Positions 4,040 through 49,985 of a stretch of 64,000 nt of DNA are shown here, piece by piece (position 1 is the stretch's first letter; every line of letters begins with the position of its first letter). The notes beneath the pieces are model-generated. The model saw only the letters and a list, made by a program, of their open reading frames with translations. It had not been told where the DNA came from and did no database searches. Source of the stretch: Sulfuriferula multivorans (lineage in GTDB: Bacteria; Pseudomonadota; Gammaproteobacteria; Burkholderiales; Sulfuriferulaceae); contig NZ_BGOW01000020.1 of the NCBI RefSeq assembly GCF_003851125.1, positions 1-64,000 of the forward strand, written 5' to 3'. The translations under genes were made by a program, and so were the position numbers.

Positions 4040-5248
4040 TTAATTGGTTGAAGTGTGTTGTTCGAGTAGTTGATAAATTCTTTGTGCAGCGTCAATGCAC
4101 TCGGCCAGCGGGGCGACCAGGGCAATGCGGATGAAACCCTTGCCCGGATTTACCCCGGCAAAGTCGCGCGCCAGGTATGAACCCGGCAGCACGGTGACGT
4201 GGTAATCGCGGTACAGGCTGCGGGCGAAGGCGGTGTCGTCGCCACCCGGCACCTGTGCCCACAGGTAGAACGCAGCATCGGGCATCGGCGCCGGCATCAC
4301 TTGCGCCAGCAACGGTTGCACGGCGGCAAATTTTTCCGCGTACAGGCGGCGGTTCTCGATCACATGCGCCTCATCGTTCCACGCAGCCACGCTGGCCATC
4401 TGGATGGTCGGCGACATCGCCGAGCCGTGGTAGGTGCGGTAGAGCAGGAATTTGGCGAGCAGCGCCGCATCGCCCGCGACAAAGCCGGAACGCATGCCCG
4501 GCACGTTGGAGCGCTTGGATAGGCTGGAGAACACCACCAGATTTTTGTAGTCGCTGCGCCCCAGTTGCTGCGCGGCCTGGAGCGCGCCCAGCGGGGGCAG
4601 GGTTTCGTCAAAGTAGATTTCCGAATAACACTCGTCGGCGGCGATAATGAAACCGTGGCGGTCGGACAATTCGAACAGTTCGCGCCAATCGTCCAGGTCC
4701 ATTACCCGGCCGGTCGGGTTGTCGGGCGAACACACATAAACCAGCTGGGTGCGTGCCAGCACGGTTTCCGGCACGCTGGCGAAGTCCATGCGGTAACCAT
4801 TTTCCGGTAGTGTCGGCAGATAATGCGGTTGCGCGCCGGCCAGCAATGCCGCGCCTTCGTAAATCTGATAAAACGGGTTGGGCGAAATTACCACCGGGCT
4901 GGCGAAGCACGGGTTGATCACCGTCTGCGCAAACGCAAACAGCGCCTCGCGGCTGCCGTTCACCGGCAATATCTGGGTGCTGGCATCGGGTGCGGGAATG
5001 CCGTAACGACGGGCAATCCAGGCGGAAATCGCGTGACGCAAGGCTTCCACGCCCGCGGTGAGCGGGTAGCTCGCCAGTCCGTCCAGGTTGGCAATCAGCG
5101 CATCCTTGATAAACTGCGGCGTGGCATGCTTGGGCTCGCCGATGGAAAGATTGACCGGCGTATATTGCGGGTTCGGCGTGATGCCGTTGAACAGCTCGCG
5201 TAATTTCTGGAACGGATAAGGCTGGAGGCGGTCGAGGTATGGGTTCAT
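4040..5248 (-). CDS. dapC: Succinyldiaminopimelate transaminase
   Basis: A fold-type I PLP aminotransferase of 402 residues acting after DapD in lysine/diaminopimelate synthesis. The start is placed at MNPYLDRLQPYPFQKLREL, the usual DapC N-terminus; the longer frame to 5350 overlaps the divergent transporter gene. Visible motifs are NLSIGEPKHATP near the start, SREALFAF, CSPDNPTGRV (substrate loop), AADECYSEIYF, and SSLSKRSNVPGMRSGF, where the lysine binds PLP. The C-terminus holds the FIRIALV strand. It forms an operon with dapD. The start lies only about 30 bases from that of the divergent EamA gene, so promoters must overlap coding sequence. Confidence 0.93.
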   Translation of the reverse strand: MNPYLDRLQPYPFQKLRELFNGITPNPQYTPVNLSIGEPKHATPQFIKDALIANLDGLASYPLTAGVEALRHAISAWIARRYGIPAPDASTQILPVNGSREALFAFAQTVINPCFASPVVISPNPFYQIYEGAALLAGAQPHYLPTLPENGYRMDFASVPETVLARTQLVYVCSPDNPTGRVMDLDDWRELFELSDRHGFIIAADECYSEIYFDETLPPLGALQAAQQLGRSDYKNLVVFSSLSKRSNVPGMRSGFVAGDAALLAKFLLYRTYHGSAMSPTIQMASVAAWNDEAHVIENRRLYAEKFAAVQPLLAQVMPAPMPDAAFYLWAQVPGGDDTAFARSLYRDYHVTVLPGSYLARDFAGVNPGKGFIRIALVAPLAECIDAAQRIYQLLEQHTSTN

Positions 5249-5279
5249 GGCCGCAAACGATGGAAAAAGCGTAATTATA

Positions 5280-6185
5280 ATGCAGCACACAACCAAGCAC
5301 TCAAACAAAAACTCGTTTTTACCCGTTCTCGCGTTGCTTGCCAGCGCCACTTTGTGGGGATTGATCTGGTACCCCTACCGCCTGCTGAGCGAGGCGGGGG
5401 TGTCCGGCCTGATGGCGTCCTTCATCACTTACGGGCTGGCGCTGCTGATCGGTGTGCCATTTTATTTCAAGGCCTTGCGTACCTTGCGCGGCAGCATGGG
5501 GTTATGGCTGGCGATTGTGTTCAGTTCGGGCTGGACCAATATCGCGTATGTGCTGGCAGTCATCGACGGCGAGATCATGCGCGTGATGCTGCTGTTTTAC
5601 CTGGCGCCATTGTGGACCATCGTATTCTCACGGTTGATTCTGGGCGAGCGTCTGGGGCGCGTGGGTTACCTGATCATGCTGCTGTCGCTGGGGGGTGCCG
5701 TGATCATGCTCTGGCAGCCGGACGGGCGTTTGCCGCTGCCGGCGAATTGGGCAGAATGGATGGGGCTCTCCGCCGGTTTCAGTTTTGCTCTGACCAACGT
5801 GTTGTCGCGCCGCGCCAGCCATATCAGCATCGAGGCCAAATCGCTCGGTGTATGGCTGGGTGCAACCCTGATTTCGTTGCCGTTGCTGTTGCTCAAGCCG
5901 GATTCTTTTGCAGGCTTGACGCACTTGGGCCCGATGATCTGGGGCGGCCTGGTGCTGGTGGCTTTTGCCATGCTGGGCGTCACGTTGTTGATTCAGTATG
6001 GATTGATGCACGTGGCAGCCAACCGCGCCATTGTGATACTGCTGTTTGAACTGGTGGTAGCGGCGCTGTCTGCCTATTTTCTGGCGGGCGAATTGCTGCA
6101 CGGCAAGGAATGGCTGGGCGCCGCGATGATTGTGGTCGCCAGCCTGTTTTCCGGCCACATGGAACACAAGGAAGAAACGGTATGA
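5280..6185 (+). CDS. EamA-family (drug/metabolite) transporter
   Basis: A 301-residue inner-membrane protein with about ten hydrophobic helices arranged as two EamA repeats, for example LALLASATLWGLIWYPYRLL near the N-terminus and LLIQYGLMHVAANRAIVILLFELVV in the second half. This family exports amino acids and other metabolites; substrate is not predictable here. I take the ATG at 5280, since the ATG at 5247 would overlap dapC. Neither has a strong ribosome site. Its TGA overlaps the ATG of the VOC gene (ATGA), so the two are co-transcribed. Confidence 0.85.
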   Translation: MQHTTKHSNKNSFLPVLALLASATLWGLIWYPYRLLSEAGVSGLMASFITYGLALLIGVPFYFKALRTLRGSMGLWLAIVFSSGWTNIAYVLAVIDGEIMRVMLLFYLAPLWTIVFSRLILGERLGRVGYLIMLLSLGGAVIMLWQPDGRLPLPANWAEWMGLSAGFSFALTNVLSRRASHISIEAKSLGVWLGATLISLPLLLLKPDSFAGLTHLGPMIWGGLVLVAFAMLGVTLLIQYGLMHVAANRAIVILLFELVVAALSAYFLAGELLHGKEWLGAAMIVVASLFSGHMEHKEETV

Positions 6186-41950: not shown

Positions 41951-42746
41951 TACACGCTGGCGCCCGACACCACTGATCCGCGCGACCCTCGTGCTGCATG
42001 CGCTGGCCCTGCTGGCAGTGCTTGTGGAACCGGGCCAATGGCGCTGGGCGTTGGGAGCCGTACTGGCCAATCACGCGCTGCTTACGCTGCTCGGGTTGTG
42101 GCCGCGCAGCCACTGGCTGGGGCAGAACTGGACACGGCTGCCTGCCGCCGCCATGGCCAGAAATGAAATTGCCTTGACCATCGACGACGGCCCCGATCCG
42201 GTCGTCACGCCGCAGGTACTGGACATGCTGGATCGCTATGCCATCCAGGCCACTTTTTTCTGCGTCGGAGAAAAAGCCACACTCTACCCGGACTTGTGCC
42301 GGGATATCGTGCGGCGCGGCCATGCTGTGGAAAACCACAGCCAGCATCACCGTCATCACTTTGCGCTGCTGGGGCGTTCCGGTTTCACGCGTGAATTGCA
42401 GGCCGCGCAGGATACGCTCACCACGATTACCGGCCAGCGCCCACTGTTCTTCCGCGCGCCAGCTGGCTTGCGCAATCCATTTCTCGACCCGGTGCTTGCC
42501 CGGTTGGAGCTGCGTCTTGCCAGCTGGTCGGCACGGGGTTTCGACACCCGGATCAGCGACATCGAGCGCGTTAAAAACAAGCTATCACGCGGTCTGCGTG
42601 CGGGTGCTATTTTACTGGTGCACGATGGCAACGCTGCACACACATCCGATGGCGTCCCTGTTATTCTTGCAGTGCTTCCCGCTGTCGTGGCTACCGCCGC
42701 AGCTGCCAATCTGCGTTTTGTCACCTTGCGCAAAGCGCTTGCATGA
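41943..42746 (+). CDS. Membrane-bound polysaccharide deacetylase-like protein
   Basis: 267 residues. Two membrane helices lie at ~10-50, then a NodB domain: IALTIDDGPDPVVTPQ (motif 1, catalytic D), HAVENHSQHH (motif 2, metal histidines), FRAPAGLRNP (motif 3), and ILLVHDGNAAH (motif 5 His). The family removes N-acetyl groups from sugars. In this pigment cluster the substrate may be the glycosyl part added by the GT2 at 51282; not proven. Overlaps the exporter by 8 bases and the next gene by 4. Confidence 0.83.
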   Translation: MPDTRWRPTPLIRATLVLHALALLAVLVEPGQWRWALGAVLANHALLTLLGLWPRSHWLGQNWTRLPAAAMARNEIALTIDDGPDPVVTPQVLDMLDRYAIQATFFCVGEKATLYPDLCRDIVRRGHAVENHSQHHRHHFALLGRSGFTRELQAAQDTLTTITGQRPLFFRAPAGLRNPFLDPVLARLELRLASWSARGFDTRISDIERVKNKLSRGLRAGAILLVHDGNAAHTSDGVPVILAVLPAVVATAAAANLRFVTLRKALA

Positions 42747-43474
42747 ATCGCGCCCATATTGGAGCAGCCGATGGAGAACAAACCTTGAGCGCAAGTAAGC
42801 AGATGCCCTGGTACCGCCAGGCGGCAGCGGTTTTCCCCAGGCATGCATTTCTCAAAGCTATCGGAACGACGCTTTTCATCGGCGTGTTTTTCGGCGCTTA
42901 TTTCTATCTGCTCAAAGATCCGGCCTACCCAACCACGGTAATGCCCGTCATCTGGCTGGATCAGCTGATTCCCTTTCAGCCCGGGACTTTGTCCGTGTAT
43001 ATATCACTGTGGGTGTATGTTTCCATCCCCCCGGCATTCCTGGCAACGCGGCGCGAACTGTATGGTTACGGCATGGCGATGGCCGCAACCTGCCTTGCCG
43101 GGCTGATCGTTTTCTATTTCTGGCCCACGGCAGTGCCCGCGGCCAATATCGACTGGGCCCGCTATCCCGACGTGGATTTCCTTAAAAGCATGGATGCTGC
43201 GGGCAATGCCTGCCCTTCGCTGCACGTCACCACTGCGGTTTTTTCGGGTATCTGGCTTCATCACCTGTTGCGCCGCTTTGGCGCACCGCTGTGGGTACTC
43301 AGCATCAACTGGATATGGTGTATCGGCATTGTCTATTCCACCATGGCCACGCGCCAGCATGTGGCGGTGGATGTGTTGGCCGGACTTGCGCTGGGGGTGC
43401 TGGCTGCTTACCTGTCATTGCGACAGCGCGCGGACGCGGGCGTCATCGGTAAAGTCAGCCGCCCATCCATTTGA
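42743..43474 (+). CDS. PAP2-family membrane phosphatase
   Basis: 243 residues with five or six membrane helices. The PAP2 catalytic motifs are GNACPSLHVTTA and STMATRQHVAVDVLAG (His and Asp of the nucleophile pair). A possible N-terminal KX6RP motif is not clear. It removes phosphate from a lipid, such as a polyprenyl or phosphatidyl phosphate. It is the last gene before the operon is broken by the AAA-DUF4435 insertion. Confidence 0.84.
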   Translation: MNRAHIGAADGEQTLSASKQMPWYRQAAAVFPRHAFLKAIGTTLFIGVFFGAYFYLLKDPAYPTTVMPVIWLDQLIPFQPGTLSVYISLWVYVSIPPAFLATRRELYGYGMAMAATCLAGLIVFYFWPTAVPAANIDWARYPDVDFLKSMDAAGNACPSLHVTTAVFSGIWLHHLLRRFGAPLWVLSINWIWCIGIVYSTMATRQHVAVDVLAGLALGVLAAYLSLRQRADAGVIGKVSRPSI

Positions 43475-43493: not shown

Positions 43494-43524
43494 TTTGTTA
43501 AAATCCTCCTTTACTTGCTGATAG
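43494..43524 (+). repeat. Left copy of an imperfect direct repeat flanking the inserted ATPase gene
   Basis: TTTGTTAA at 43494, CTTTACTT at 43509 and GATAG at 43520 recur with almost the same spacing at 45982, 45997 and 46007. Aligned, 25 of 31 positions agree with one gap. The copies bracket the ATPase gene exactly, between the PAP2 and ketosynthase genes. They may be old target or attachment duplications; a shared regulatory sequence is the other explanation. Confidence 0.5.
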
Positions 43525-43631
43525 ATTGCTAACCCATGTATCCGTTGCCCCGTGTTACATGAACGGGTGGATATTACCTAATAGGCTGAGAGTGGTTTTC
43601 GAAGAAAAATAACGATGATATCGAGGTCGAC

Positions 43632-45701
43632 ATGCACATAAAAGCGTTACACATAAAAAATTTCCGCGCAATCGAAGATATAAATGTCGATTTCGATAAC
43701 CGTGTAAATATCATTGTCGGACCAAATGCCGTAGGAAAGACAACTGTCTTAGAGGCAATTAGATTAGTCAAAGCATTACTTTTCCCACGTACTCAGAACG
43801 AAAGCATGCAAGCACTTTTCGCTCTAGGTGCAGCCTCGCCACACCTTCCTCAACAGATCACAATTCCAGCCTTGGCTCGGAATCCAAGTACTCCAGTAGT
43901 AATTAGTATTCGATTTGAATTGAGCAAAGACGAAATCACGTGGCTAGAAAACTCTGTCCCCATAATTGCAAGAGGAATTATTCAAGGAAGGATGGGACAA
44001 GCCTTCTCAAACCCAACGACGCTGATTAACTTCCTTGGAACTCCTCAAGGGCAACAGGCAATAGAGGCGGCGCAAAAGGAAGTAAATTCAGCAATAAACG
44101 ATTCCAAAAACGATGGTAGACAATGTCGAGTTGAATTAACGATCTCGCCAATGACAGGTCCACAGTCGACTGATAACCCCGTTTGGCCAACGCTCTTAGC
44201 TATGCTCGATCAGCGCCATCCGCCGGGTTTGACTAGTTTTAGCTACTTTCCCGCCGACAGAGCATTACCCCAAGGTGAGCAGCCCGTCCAATTAGGCATG
44301 GCGGATGCTCAAGCACAATTGGAATCTCATAGTTCTCAGCCGCAAACGAAATATACAAGGCTAAAGAATACAATATTTAGCGCGATGATTATGAGTGAAA
44401 GTGGGCGAGAAGAGCTGACTGCGGAATTTGAACGCATATTTCAGGGCATTTTAAAGGGGCGGCGCCTCAAAGGATTTGGGCTTAATCATATTGGCTTACT
44501 TTCTATACTGGTCGAAGATACTGAAACAGGCCGGACCTTTGAGATCGATGGAATGAGTAGTGGAGAAAAAGGCCTTATCCTCACCTTTCTTCTCATCGAA
44601 AGATCGGTTGCTCAAGACGGCTTGATATTACTAGATGAGCCGGAATTGCACCTTAACCCTGCGGTATGTAAGGACCTTTTATCTTTCCTCGTTGATGGTT
44701 ATGCAGTTCGGAAGAATTTACAGGTGTTTGTGTGCTCTCATTCGCCAGAAATTCTGGCAGGAGCTTTCGATAATGACGAATGTTCGCTTTACCACCTTGA
44801 ATCTGAGCTGATGCTCACTAAGGTCCGTCGTCAAGATCACACAGTAATTGCCGAAGCACTGCGACGTCTAGGGACTTCAGAAAGCGAAGGGCTTTTATTT
44901 AACGGCACAATTTTCGTCGAAGGAATCGATGACGTAAGCCTATTAGAGGCTGGATTCAGCTCTATTCTACGCAGGTATAAAATTAAGGATCTTGGTGGAC
45001 GGCGCGAGATCGAGAAGGAAATTAAACAGCTTCAAGATGCTGAGAATAGGGGCACAGAATTATCATCTCGCTATTTTATTTTTGATCGAGACGAATTACC
45101 AACTGATCTCAAAAACACCAAGTCAACAAAGATACTTCAATGGGAGCGTAGATGTTTAGAAAATTATTTACTCGACATCGACATACTTACTGATTTATTT
45201 ATGAATAGTGAAGTCGTTAAGAACCCACTAAATAACTTAGGCGAAGTACAAAAAAAGCTTCGCGAATTGGCATTTGGGCAGCTAGATGATTTCGTCGCCA
45301 AGCAGATTTATTCGAGATACCAATATATTGATCCTGGTATCCGTGCAACGGAAATCCAAGGGAAAAGTTTGAACAATATCGCCGAGTTACTTCATGAGCG
45401 TCTGCTTAAAATAATGAACCAATACTCGACAATTGATGAGAGCAATTGGACGAGCGACTTTCTAAAAAAATGTTCAGAAGAACGTCAAAACTTGACCTCT
45501 GTTTGGGAGGCCAAGTGGTTGAACGAGTGTGATGGAAAAAGACTTTTTAACGAGATTTGTCAGAAAGTTCAACCAAAAATGGGGCCAAAAAAGTTCAAAA
45601 TCCGAGTCATGAACGAAATGCGATTGAAACCGTCTGAAAATTGGCGTGCTATCAATAGTCTTCTCAGCGACCTACTGGCCAAAAATAGCGAAACCAAGTG
45701 A
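43632..45701 (+). CDS. AAA ATPase fused to a DUF4435/TOPRIM-like domain, PARIS-like defence candidate
   Basis: 689 residues. The N-terminal SMC/ABC-type ATPase has Walker A G-P-N-A-V-G-K-T (30-37), signature MSSGEKGLIL (~306), Walker B LILLDEPELHLNP (~330) and switch His VCSHSPEIL (~369). The C-terminal part begins TIFVEGIDDVSLLEAG (~425), contains FIFDRDE (~483) and ERRCLENYLLD (~510). The E...DxD pattern plus ENYLL is the signature of DUF4435, a TOPRIM-like domain. This is the architecture of merged AriA-AriB in PARIS anti-phage systems; an OLD-type ATPase-nuclease is the alternative. Base composition is visibly more AT-rich than the pigment genes around it, so it is an import. Confidence 0.8.
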   Translation: MHIKALHIKNFRAIEDINVDFDNRVNIIVGPNAVGKTTVLEAIRLVKALLFPRTQNESMQALFALGAASPHLPQQITIPALARNPSTPVVISIRFELSKDEITWLENSVPIIARGIIQGRMGQAFSNPTTLINFLGTPQGQQAIEAAQKEVNSAINDSKNDGRQCRVELTISPMTGPQSTDNPVWPTLLAMLDQRHPPGLTSFSYFPADRALPQGEQPVQLGMADAQAQLESHSSQPQTKYTRLKNTIFSAMIMSESGREELTAEFERIFQGILKGRRLKGFGLNHIGLLSILVEDTETGRTFEIDGMSSGEKGLILTFLLIERSVAQDGLILLDEPELHLNPAVCKDLLSFLVDGYAVRKNLQVFVCSHSPEILAGAFDNDECSLYHLESELMLTKVRRQDHTVIAEALRRLGTSESEGLLFNGTIFVEGIDDVSLLEAGFSSILRRYKIKDLGGRREIEKEIKQLQDAENRGTELSSRYFIFDRDELPTDLKNTKSTKILQWERRCLENYLLDIDILTDLFMNSEVVKNPLNNLGEVQKKLRELAFGQLDDFVAKQIYSRYQYIDPGIRATEIQGKSLNNIAELLHERLLKIMNQYSTIDESNWTSDFLKKCSEERQNLTSVWEAKWLNECDGKRLFNEICQKVQPKMGPKKFKIRVMNEMRLKPSENWRAINSLLSDLLAKNSETK

Positions 45702-46023
45702 CGTTTGTCGTACTCATTAAGCGGTTCTGTATTTGCTATTCGCTTTCGGAAGACTTGCTTGGCTTTCCCCTGAGCAATTGAACGTTTCCCTCGGGTATAT
45801 GATAAGTCAAATAGAAATTTGGAATTGCCAGTGCCTAGATTTGTCTGAACCGGCGAGCCAACCACAATTCGAAAGCTGGGCGTCTGCTGTTAGCAACAGT
45901 CACCGTCCGCAAGAGGCCGCAACTAGTCGTTGGAGTGAAGGTTTTTACCCCCAACGCCCCAAGCTCCCACCTTCAACTTTTTTTGTTAACAGCTTGCTTT
46001 ACTTACGATAGGCTTATTTTTCA
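45702..46023. other. Right flank of the insertion; no gene seen
   Basis: 322 bases with frames on both strands but none that looks like protein. The first half is AT-rich like the ATPase gene. A T7 run lies at 45978-45984. The right copy of the direct repeat (45982-46011) ends only 12 bases before the TTG start of the ketosynthase gene. Confidence 0.55.
45982..46011 (+). repeat. Right copy of the imperfect direct repeat
   Basis: Partner of 43494-43524: TTTGTTAA (45982-45989), CTTTACTT (45997-46004), GATAG (46007-46011). If these are insertion duplications, the imported segment is about 2.49 kb and contains the ATPase gene alone. Confidence 0.5.
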
Positions 46024-47223
46024 TTGAACTCGCTTTGGCTTTCCCATTTCACCGCGACCAGCAGCATCGGTCGTGGCCTCGGCCAGACACTCGCCGCGCT
46101 GCACCAGCGCCGCGCCGGACTGACGCCGTGCGCTTTTGATACGGTGGATCTGGAGACATTCATTGGCGAGGTCGCGGGCGTGGATGAAGTACAACTTCCC
46201 GCGCACCTGGCTGACTATGATTGCCGCAACAACCGCCTCGCGTTGCTGGGATTGATGCAGGACGGCTTTGCCGATGCGGTGCATGCTGCCATCGCAAAAT
46301 ACGGCGCGCAACGCATTGGCGTGTTTCTCGGCACCAGCACTTCCGGCATTCTGCAAACCGAACTGGCTTACCGGCATCGCGATGCGACGACCGGTGCATT
46401 CCCCGCTGATTTTATTTATGGCACGACGCACAATACCTTTTCCGTTGCCGATTTCACGCGCCATTATTTTGGCTTGTCCGGCCCGGCGGTGGTGGTGTCA
46501 TCGGCGTGTTCGTCGAGTGCCAAAGTATTTGCATCGGCGCGCCGCATGATGGCAGCCGGGCTGATCGATGCAGCGCTTGTGGGCGGTGTGGATTCGTTAT
46601 GCCTGACAACGCTGTATGGCTTCAACTCGCTCGGCCTGATTTCCGAACAGGCATGTCGCCCATTCGATGCGCAACGCAATGGCATCTCGATTGGCGAAGC
46701 GGCTGCCTTCGCGCTTCTGGAGCGCACCCCGGAATATCTGGATGCCGATGCTGTGCTGCTGCTCGGAACAGGCGAATCCAGCGATGCCTATCACATGTCG
46801 TCACCGCACCCGGAGGGTCTGGGCGCGCGCATGGCGATGCAGGATGCGCTGAAAATGGCGGGTTTGAAACCGGCTGACATCGACTATATCAATCTGCACG
46901 GCACCGCGACCCAAAGCAATGATGCTGCGGAAGGCAAGGCTGTGACTGCCATATTCGGCGCGGGCACGCTGTGCAGTTCCACCAAGGGTGCAACCGGCCA
47001 CACCCTGGGCGCTGCCGGCGGCGTGGAGGCGGTGATTTGTGCGCTGGCGTTGCAACACGGCTTGCTGCCCGCCGGGTTGAACACCCGGCAACTCGATCCC
47101 ACGCTGGATCTCGATTACCTGCTGGAGAATCGTGAGCAGCCGGTGAAGCATGTGCTCAGCAATTCGTTTGGATTCGGTGGCACCAATTGCAGCCTGATTT
47201 TTGGTCGGGCGGACAATTCATGA
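46024..47223 (+). CDS. Beta-ketoacyl-ACP synthase of the aryl polyene cluster
   Basis: 399 residues of the KAS I/II fold. Catalytic Cys is in VVVSSACSSSAKVF (~161) and histidines in INLHGTATQSND (~291) and TKGATGHTLGAAGG (~324); the end is NSFGFGGTNCSLIFG. It extends the polyene two carbons at a time, as a dimer with the chain-length factor that follows. Start is TTG 46024, because a TAG lies 12 bases upstream in frame. The ribosome site is poor. The insertion just upstream may have replaced the original leader. Confidence 0.9.
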   Translation: MNSLWLSHFTATSSIGRGLGQTLAALHQRRAGLTPCAFDTVDLETFIGEVAGVDEVQLPAHLADYDCRNNRLALLGLMQDGFADAVHAAIAKYGAQRIGVFLGTSTSGILQTELAYRHRDATTGAFPADFIYGTTHNTFSVADFTRHYFGLSGPAVVVSSACSSSAKVFASARRMMAAGLIDAALVGGVDSLCLTTLYGFNSLGLISEQACRPFDAQRNGISIGEAAAFALLERTPEYLDADAVLLLGTGESSDAYHMSSPHPEGLGARMAMQDALKMAGLKPADIDYINLHGTATQSNDAAEGKAVTAIFGAGTLCSSTKGATGHTLGAAGGVEAVICALALQHGLLPAGLNTRQLDPTLDLDYLLENREQPVKHVLSNSFGFGGTNCSLIFGRADNS

Positions 47224-48481: not shown

Positions 48482-49197
48482 AAAACGCTCTGGTTACCGG
48501 CGGCAGCGGCGGCATAGGCGCGGCCATCTGCCGCCGCCTCGCTGCCGATGGCTGCCATGTCTACATTCATGCCCATCATGGACTGCAAGCCGCACAGATG
48601 CTGGCCGATGACATTTGTGCCGGCGGTGGCAGTGCTCAGGCGCTGGCATTTGATGTGACTGACAGCACAGCGGTAGCCGATGTACTGACCCCGCTCGTCG
48701 AACACCAGCCGATCCAGATTCTGGTCAACAATGCCGGCATCCATGACGACGCCGTGTTCCCCGGCATGCGCGCCGAGCAGTGGCACCGGGTGATCGACGT
48801 ATCCGTCAACGGTTTTTTCAACGTCACCCAGCCGCTGATGATGCCGATGATCCGCAGCCGCTGGGGACGCATTATCAATGTATCTTCCATCGCCGCGCTG
48901 ACCGGCAACGCGGGCCAGGTCAACTATTCTGCCGCCAAGGGCGCGCTGAATTCGGCGACCAAATCGCTGGCCCGGGAAGTCGCCAGCCGCGGCATCACCG
49001 TCAACGCGGTGGCTCCCGGTATTATCGACACCCCGATGAGCGAATCCGCGTTCGACGCCCAGGACATCGCACGCCTGGTGCCGATGAAACGCGCGGGTAC
49101 CCCCGACGAAGTTGCCGACCTGATCGGCTTTCTCGCCACGACGCAGGCGGCTTATATCACCGGGCAGATTATCTCCATCAACGGCGGCATGATTTAA
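48478..49197 (+). CDS. 3-oxoacyl-ACP reductase (FabG-like SDR)
   Basis: 239 residues. The Rossmann fold has TGGSGGIGAAIC (cofactor loop), NNAGIHDD, the catalytic S in NVSSIAALTG with Y-x3-K in VNYSAAKGAL, and INGGMI at the end. It reduces the 3-keto group using NADPH in each polyene round. The upstream AGGAG serves its ATG. Complete. Confidence 0.92.
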   Translation: MKNALVTGGSGGIGAAICRRLAADGCHVYIHAHHGLQAAQMLADDICAGGGSAQALAFDVTDSTAVADVLTPLVEHQPIQILVNNAGIHDDAVFPGMRAEQWHRVIDVSVNGFFNVTQPLMMPMIRSRWGRIINVSSIAALTGNAGQVNYSAAKGALNSATKSLAREVASRGITVNAVAPGIIDTPMSESAFDAQDIARLVPMKRAGTPDEVADLIGFLATTQAAYITGQIISINGGMI

Positions 49198-49211
49198 CGG
49201 TGAATGACGAC

Positions 49212-49985
49212 ATGAATACACCCACCCCAGCCCCGGTGCATGCACCGCACATCCCGCTCACCGATTACTACCAGACCGAGCAGGACCGGCAAGCTTATCT
49301 GCGCCAGATTTTTGACAACACCGCGCCGGATTACGACCGTATCGAGGCGATGCTGGCGTGGGGTTCCGGTTCCCGCTACCGGCGCCAGGCGCTGATTCGC
49401 GGCGGCTTGAAGCCCGGCATGAGGGTGCTCGACGTCGGCGTCGGCACCGGCCTGGTTGCAGCACAAGCCTGTATGCTGGCCGGTGATCCCGCCCTGGTTA
49501 CCGGAGTCGATCCCAGCCCCGGCATGATGGCAGCCAGCAAGCTGCCCAAGACCATGGTGCTGATGGAAGGCCGGGCGGAATCCCTGCCTTTTCCCGACAA
49601 TCATTTTGATTTCCTGAGCATGGGCTATGCACTGCGCCATATCAGCGACCTGGGCGTAGCGTTTACGGAGTTTGAACGGGTACTGAAGCCGGGTGGCCGT
49701 CTATGCCTGCTCGAAATCACCCAGGCGCAAAGCCGTGTTGGGCAATGGCTGCTCAAAACCTACATGCGCGGCGTAATACCGCTGCTCACGCGATTCATTT
49801 CCAGACAGAAGGATACCGCGACGATCTGGCGTTATTACTGGGATAGCATCGAAGCCTGCGTTCCCCCCGAACAAGTCATGGCAACGCTAAGCGCGGCAGG
49901 ACTGACCCAGGTTAAGCGCCATCTGGAGGTCGGCATATTTTCAGAATATCAGGCGATCAAGATCAATCCCGGCCAGCCTGGCTGA
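49212..49985 (+). CDS. SAM-dependent methyltransferase of the pigment cluster
   Basis: 257 residues, UbiE-like class I fold. VLDVGVGTGLVAAQA is the SAM loop, GVDPSPGMMAASK the acidic loop, and ERVLKPGGRLCLLEI the post-motif III strand. It probably methylates the aryl head group, as seen in other aryl polyenes. ATG 49212 is preferred; GTG 49200 is also in frame. The longer frame back to 48780 lies inside the reductase gene and is not real. Confidence 0.87.
   Translation: MNTPTPAPVHAPHIPLTDYYQTEQDRQAYLRQIFDNTAPDYDRIEAMLAWGSGSRYRRQALIRGGLKPGMRVLDVGVGTGLVAAQACMLAGDPALVTGVDPSPGMMAASKLPKTMVLMEGRAESLPFPDNHFDFLSMGYALRHISDLGVAFTEFERVLKPGGRLCLLEITQAQSRVGQWLLKTYMRGVIPLLTRFISRQKDTATIWRYYWDSIEACVPPEQVMATLSAAGLTQVKRHLEVGIFSEYQAIKINPGQPG

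Follow-up and report, generated by a model that had tools for sequence, protein, structure and literature searches.

PARIS is known in two forms. In the two-gene form, the phage anti-restriction protein Ocr acts as the trigger (PMC9122126), and AriB is a TOPRIM tRNase (PMC12409363). The single-gene form, in which both parts are fused (AriAB; PADLOC PDLC02981), was described in 2022 by Rousset et al., whose original detection of PARIS used a "loner" rule for the stand-alone fused gene (PMC9122126). In this work, PARIS is read as a second line of defence behind restriction. The genome of Sulfuriferula multivorans analysed here carries type I restriction genes, the sort that PARIS backs up.

The window, a stretch of 64,000 nt of this genome, contains a pigment cluster with a GC content of approximately 60%. 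A first-pass annotation had pointed to an AT-richer single gene between the PAP2 gene and the β-ketoacyl-ACP synthase (KS) gene of this cluster, and had described it as an ATPase fused to a DUF4435 domain, as in a merged AriA-AriB. These descriptions were all borne out (Table 1). The gene is one intact ORF of 689 aa without internal stops, its ATG start is common to its relatives, and its GC content ranges from 0.38 to 0.47, compared with 0.55 to 0.64 in the flanks. Residues 1 to 680 match the PADLOC model of the fused form with 873 bits (E 6e-263), while the second-best PADLOC model reaches 93 bits. In Pfam, AAA_15 (88 bits, cut-off 32, E 9e-25) and AAA_21 (68 bits, cut-off 27) are matched. 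DUF4435 scores 27.0 bits in the whole protein, exactly the gathering cut-off, and 29.0 bits against the cut-off of 27 when the C-terminal part is scanned alone; this part is also matched by the AriB profile (E 8e-9).

Seventeen full-length relatives were found by an alignment-based profile search of genome contigs; the single window protein as query retrieved none from the same contigs. An alignment of 19 sequences, in which the relatives are 36–58% identical to the window protein, shows that the catalytic positions of the ATPase half are invariant in 19 of 19. These are the Walker A motif GPNAVGK (residues 30–36), the signature SSGEK (309–313), the Walker B residues DE (335–336), and the switch residue His370. 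In the C-terminal half, the TOPRIM acidic residues E430, D485 and D487 are intact and invariant in all aligned relatives, with the invariant set comprising E430-G431..D434, D485xD487, E510-N511-Y512 and K636. The identity of the window gene as a fused AriA-AriB (PARIS) is thus supported by profile, conserved residues and, as described below, fold. As a full explanation, it is very probable that ariAB is a one-polypeptide PARIS acquired by insertion after the split from the sister species.

Table 1. Features of the ariAB insertion and its surroundings in the window.
Feature	Position	Strand	Basis
PAP2 gene, last of the upstream block	42743..43474	+	domain match
TTTGTTAAAATCCTC, extended -10-like motif (TGTTAAAAT) of the KS block	43494..43508	+	similar in KS leaders of other species
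Left copy of CTTTACTT, target-site-duplication-like	43509..43516	+	empty-site comparison
Inserted segment with only ariAB inside; its 2,488 bp include one copy of the 8-bp repeat	43517..46004	+	comparison with the empty site of G002 (L020)
Fused ariAB (PARIS), 689 aa	43632..45701	+	PADLOC AriAB, Pfam AAA_15 and DUF4435, AlphaFold2 models, fold matches
ATPase half (AriA-like ABC/SMC-type, residues ~1–400)	43632..44843	+	alignment; PtuA/SMC-head fold match, Z 19–26
TOPRIM/DUF4435 half (AriB-like, residues ~405–689)	44844..45698	+	alignment; best fold match AriB
Right arm of the insert, ~295 bp, non-coding	45702..45996	+	no homologue found, no attC-like hairpin
Right copy of CTTTACTT	45997..46004	+	empty-site comparison
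β-ketoacyl-ACP synthase (KS), TTG start, first of the downstream block	46024..47223	+	NF006618, 575 bits

The closest cluster-bearing congener (G002, locus L020), whose KS is 91% identical, served as the empty-site reference. Its PAP2-KS joint lacks ariAB, and 61 nt, among them AATCCTCCTTTACTTACGATTGGC, separate the stop from the start. The left flank AATCCTCCTTTACTT in the window is followed across the junction by GCTGATAG, and at the right end GTTAACAGCTTG is followed by CTTTACTTACGATAGGC. The 61-nt spacer is kept as 42 + 19 nt, and the whole interval is exactly 2,488 bp longer than in G002. The empty site has a single copy of the 8-bp direct repeat CTTTACTT, and the filled site has one at each junction. 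The insert comprises 115 bp before ariAB and about 300 bp after it. A second uninterrupted PAP2-KS site is found in G014. The gene is not a constant part of the cluster, as a protein search of 17 congeners did not detect ariAB in any of them, and the AriAB profile gave only partial matches there, mostly to the ATPase, with no full-length gene. Judged from this comparison, the location of ariAB is an acquired insertion. The acquisition would have followed the split from the sister species, when a 2,488-bp segment carrying only ariAB would have entered the natural spacer that separates the PAP2 block from the KS block in the xanthomonadin/aryl-polyene-like cluster with duplication of an 8-bp target. 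The inserting enzyme would have been encoded outside the insert.

The insert encodes only ariAB and no transposase, and an Rfam search of it returned no non-coding RNA. Its ends (left GCTGATAGATTG, right reverse complement CAAGCTGTTAAC) show no recognisable terminal inverted repeats. Of the features of a classical insertion sequence or unit transposon, the target-site duplication (8 bp, CTTTACTT) is present, and the transposase and inverted repeats are absent. No further copies of either arm beyond chance were found in the host genome, and a search for the right arm in plasmids and in 369 genomes from the class had the same outcome. Two proposals for the mode of entry are compatible with the preferred reading of an acquired one-polypeptide PARIS. 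The first, which is possible but should be regarded as tentative, is a non-autonomous, transposase-less transposable element moved in trans by a transposase that duplicates 8 bp. It is in line with the exact duplication of CTTTACTT around a 2.48-kb insert and with a 61-nt spacer whose length is otherwise kept to the base; the lack of clear terminal inverted repeats and of a second copy of the insert ends in the genome speaks against it. The second is a tyrosine-type site-specific recombinase acting in trans, with CTTTACTT as the crossover core common to chromosome and element. This is likewise possible but tentative. The repeat does extend imperfectly to 23 nt (TTTGTTAAAATCCTCCTTTACTT / TTTGTTAACAGCTTGCTTTACTT, 19 of 23 identical), and the 11 of 15 matches outside the CTTTACTT core are seen in 0.07% of other offset pairs. 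However, the similarity beyond the core is short and one-sided, the insert contains no integrase, and no other integrated copy was found. The 23-nt imperfect repeat is suggestive of a recombinase core, but the 8-bp duplication is accounted for just as well by a transposase acting in trans.

Full-length fused relatives were found in Acidithiobacillus, Polaromonas, Burkholderia, Rhizobium, Sinorhizobium, Acidobacteria, Nostoc and others. They are almost always AT-richer than their own flanks and are mostly lone genes, often with unrelated ordinary genes as neighbours, such as TetR and epimerase genes in Rhizobium, DUF924 and ABC permease genes in Sinorhizobium, and queA and polA in an acidobacterium. 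A restriction gene (GmrSD, Mrr) lies near some of them. The loner habit is common in the fused ariAB group. The Rhizobium relative is inserted with a TetR gene on one side and a terminator-like hairpin on the other, its exact ends being hidden by divergence of the spacer, and the relative in Burkholderia stagnalis is part of a variable interval of 4 kb with more than one gene. Regarding the latter, a small variable site (L039 7635-11889, L120 3286-7329) is located between genes for a DAO-type oxidoreductase and an aminotransferase. It is filled with approximately 4 kb including fused ariAB in B. stagnalis, with a different 4 kb in B. multivorans, and with almost nothing in Paraburkholderia. 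No relative was found in phage and viral collections, where the viral scan used exact peptide patterns and could miss distant relatives.

A wider proposal is that fused ariAB travels as cargo on a minimal mobile unit that lacks a recombinase and enters, by insertion in trans, those intergenic spacers that adjoin the promoters of core or biosynthetic genes. We consider this generalisation unlikely. If true, it would explain why single-gene PARIS systems are found as low-GC loners that lie neither in defence islands nor in phages.

A second AriAB signal was detected on the same contig as the window (C20:129442-129597). It lies within an ORF of 124 aa (G000 C20:129277-129651; L146 5278-5652) that is AT-richer, resembles the C-terminal end of AriAB (profile E 5e-7), and is truncated beside an IS3-type transposase. 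The fragment shows no DNA similarity to the ariAB insert. It is possibly a second, decayed PARIS-like gene.

As the insert consists of one gene, has little DNA on either side of it and lacks a recombinase, ariAB might also have moved as an integron gene cassette that the host's own integron integrase captured at a non-canonical site in the chromosome. The host genome does encode such an enzyme (TIGR02249, 487 bits), with a real attC-bearing cassette adjoining. This origin is nevertheless very unlikely. No attC hairpin above shuffles was found at the 3' end of ariAB, and the bottom-strand fold of the insert ends is no better than that of shuffles (z -0.9 to 0.06), in contrast to the host attC that served as positive control (z -6.25). 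In addition, the junctions lie at the 8-bp duplication CTTTACTT and not at a G|TT crossover. An integron cassette origin is thus disfavoured by the missing attC and the junction position. The chromosomal integron itself is located at G000 contig C46:45756-46700 (L142 3754-4734, minus strand) and L142 ~4857-5335. Its integrase exceeds the curated cut-off, and the first cassette has a clear attC (bottom-strand z -6.25). The contig ends approximately 80 bp past this attC, so that the cassette array is not assembled there.

Structure prediction adds to the assignment of the protein as a fused PARIS. The full-length AlphaFold2 model, built from 18 sequences, has a pLDDT of 83 and a pTM of 0.60, which gives only moderate confidence in the domain packing. 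Residues 1–417 of this model match PtuA and SMC heads with Z 19–26. Predicted alone, residues 405–689 reach a pLDDT of 89 and a pTM of 0.81. The two solved PARIS complexes, 8v46 and 8ux9, provide the best fold matches for this part, with their AriB ranking first over 221–222 residues (8v46_D, Z 13.5; 8ux9_A, Z 13.4) at a low identity of 13%.

The arrangement of an ATPase followed by a TOPRIM domain is also common to OLD and GajA, and a Gabija GajA-type or OLD-type nuclease would cut DNA rather than tRNA. GajA profiles do match the window protein (E 5e-24), with their best stretches on the ATPase. The OLD-like TOPRIM (PF20469) is matched weakly in 3 of 18 sequences (best E 0.0036) and is not reported for the window protein; its fold is related, with a much weaker match than AriB. 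OLD C-terminal domains reach Z 7–7.5 and GajA Z 5–5.6 on the C-terminal model, where AriB is ahead of every other match by at least 5 Z units. DUF4435, in turn, is matched in the C-terminal domains of all 18 aligned sequences, and AriAB is almost 800 bits ahead of the highest-scoring GajA model. A GajB-type (UvrD-like) helicase gene does not adjoin ariAB, whose neighbours are the PAP2 and KS pigment genes. With profiles and fold both disfavouring it, an OLD/GajA identity is highly improbable, and the C-terminal half is assigned to the DUF4435/AriB type.

Besides PAP2 and KS, the cluster encodes an AMP-ligase, an LpxL-like acyltransferase, LolA, an MMPL exporter, a polysaccharide deacetylase, a second KS, FabG, a UbiE-type methyltransferase and a CPA2 antiporter. 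An acyltransferase, a chorismatase (FkbO/Hyg5-like) and an FAD halogenase are encoded on the minus strand. From established pathway knowledge, we take this gene set to point to a xanthomonadin-like, brominated aryl-polyene pathway. The TTG start codon of KS is shared by the window and the sister genome. The methyltransferase ORF as listed (48780-49985) overlaps fabG. As its matched domain begins only at residue ~167, the actual start probably lies close to 49280.

The cluster had been called a tightly overlapping operon in the first-pass annotation. This holds for the genes on either side, which overlap by a few bases, and not for the PAP2-KS joint, where 61 nt separate the genes even in the relative with the empty site. 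An extended -10-like motif precedes the KS block, and similar motifs are found in the KS leaders of other species (TGCTAAAATCC in G014, TGCTATAATCC in G012, TGGTAAAATGCC in G007); among the KS leaders of several species, the motif is also given as TGTTAAAATCC. The motif is a putative promoter; a simple consensus scan listed no promoter at its position. The insertion sits immediately downstream of it, with ariAB in the same direction, and ariAB could probably be transcribed along with the cluster. The joint is a natural gap where two gene blocks border on each other, and not a defence hotspot.

The PAP2-KS interval in congeners (L021 6047-9236, L023 6654-11216, L024 8780-9568, L025 7345-13896) holds varying pigment genes (halogenase-, chorismatase- and acyltransferase-like genes, an antiporter) and, in a single congener, an ABC transporter pair. 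Rearrangement of the two cluster halves is seen between species. That ariAB is a pigment pathway gene, or part of a fixed defence hotspot at the joint, is barely credible: other congeners do carry one to five extra genes there, but these are mostly pigment genes plus the one transporter pair, none of them for defence, and ariAB is absent in 17 of 17. The pigment cluster is one loner site among others and does not point to a dedicated integration platform. The view of this location as unusual is accordingly only partly upheld, as the fused form is already in the catalogues and it is common for related genes to stand alone among unrelated ones; the pigment-cluster site and the resolved insertion are particular.

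By analogy with the E. coli system, the AriA part, an N-terminal ABC/SMC-type ATPase, would sense a phage-encoded trigger, which may be a DNA-mimicking anti-restriction protein such as Ocr. The triggered ATPase would then license the TOPRIM of the AriB part to cleave tRNA, and the resulting stop of translation would halt phage growth in an abortive outcome. Trigger, tRNA target and outcome of the window protein are thus predicted from the family. Since the identity to AriA and AriB of the experimentally studied two-gene PARIS is low, with the AriA of 8ux9 matching along one short stretch only, the trigger and the tRNA specificity may differ.

Fused PARIS is already known, and what is new here is a modest detail, namely the landing site and the exact, machinery-free insertion. 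The single-gene PARIS identity is confirmed by sequence, conservation and fold. Moreover, the locus offers a base-resolved example of the entry of a defence gene, in which a one-gene insertion of 2.49 kb with an 8-bp duplication lies in a biosynthetic cluster without a mobility gene. The question of how single defence genes can move when no machinery is visible is made concrete by this junction.

Among the known systems, Septu PtuA and the PtuA of retron Ec78/Eco7 are structurally closest to the ATPase half (Z ~25). However, ariAB has no neighbouring HNH partner PtuB, and its NCBIfam PtuA score is 67 against a cut-off of 500. OLD, Gabija GajA and the retron Eco8 effector likewise combine an ATPase and then a TOPRIM domain in a single chain, whereas the TOPRIM half of ariAB is of the DUF4435/AriB type, and their fold matches lie at least 6 Z units below AriB. 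With two-gene E. coli PARIS (8ux9, 8v46), the window protein shares the AriB-like TOPRIM fold (Z 13.5 over 222 aa) and an AriA-like ATPase, but it is one polypeptide instead of two, and the AriB match is 13% identical. The closest likeness is to the catalogued fused AriAB (PDLC02981), with which the window gene agrees in both domains, the single polypeptide, the catalytic motifs and the stand-alone habit. Compared with this form, it is particular only in its position within a pigment cluster and in its resolved insertion junctions.
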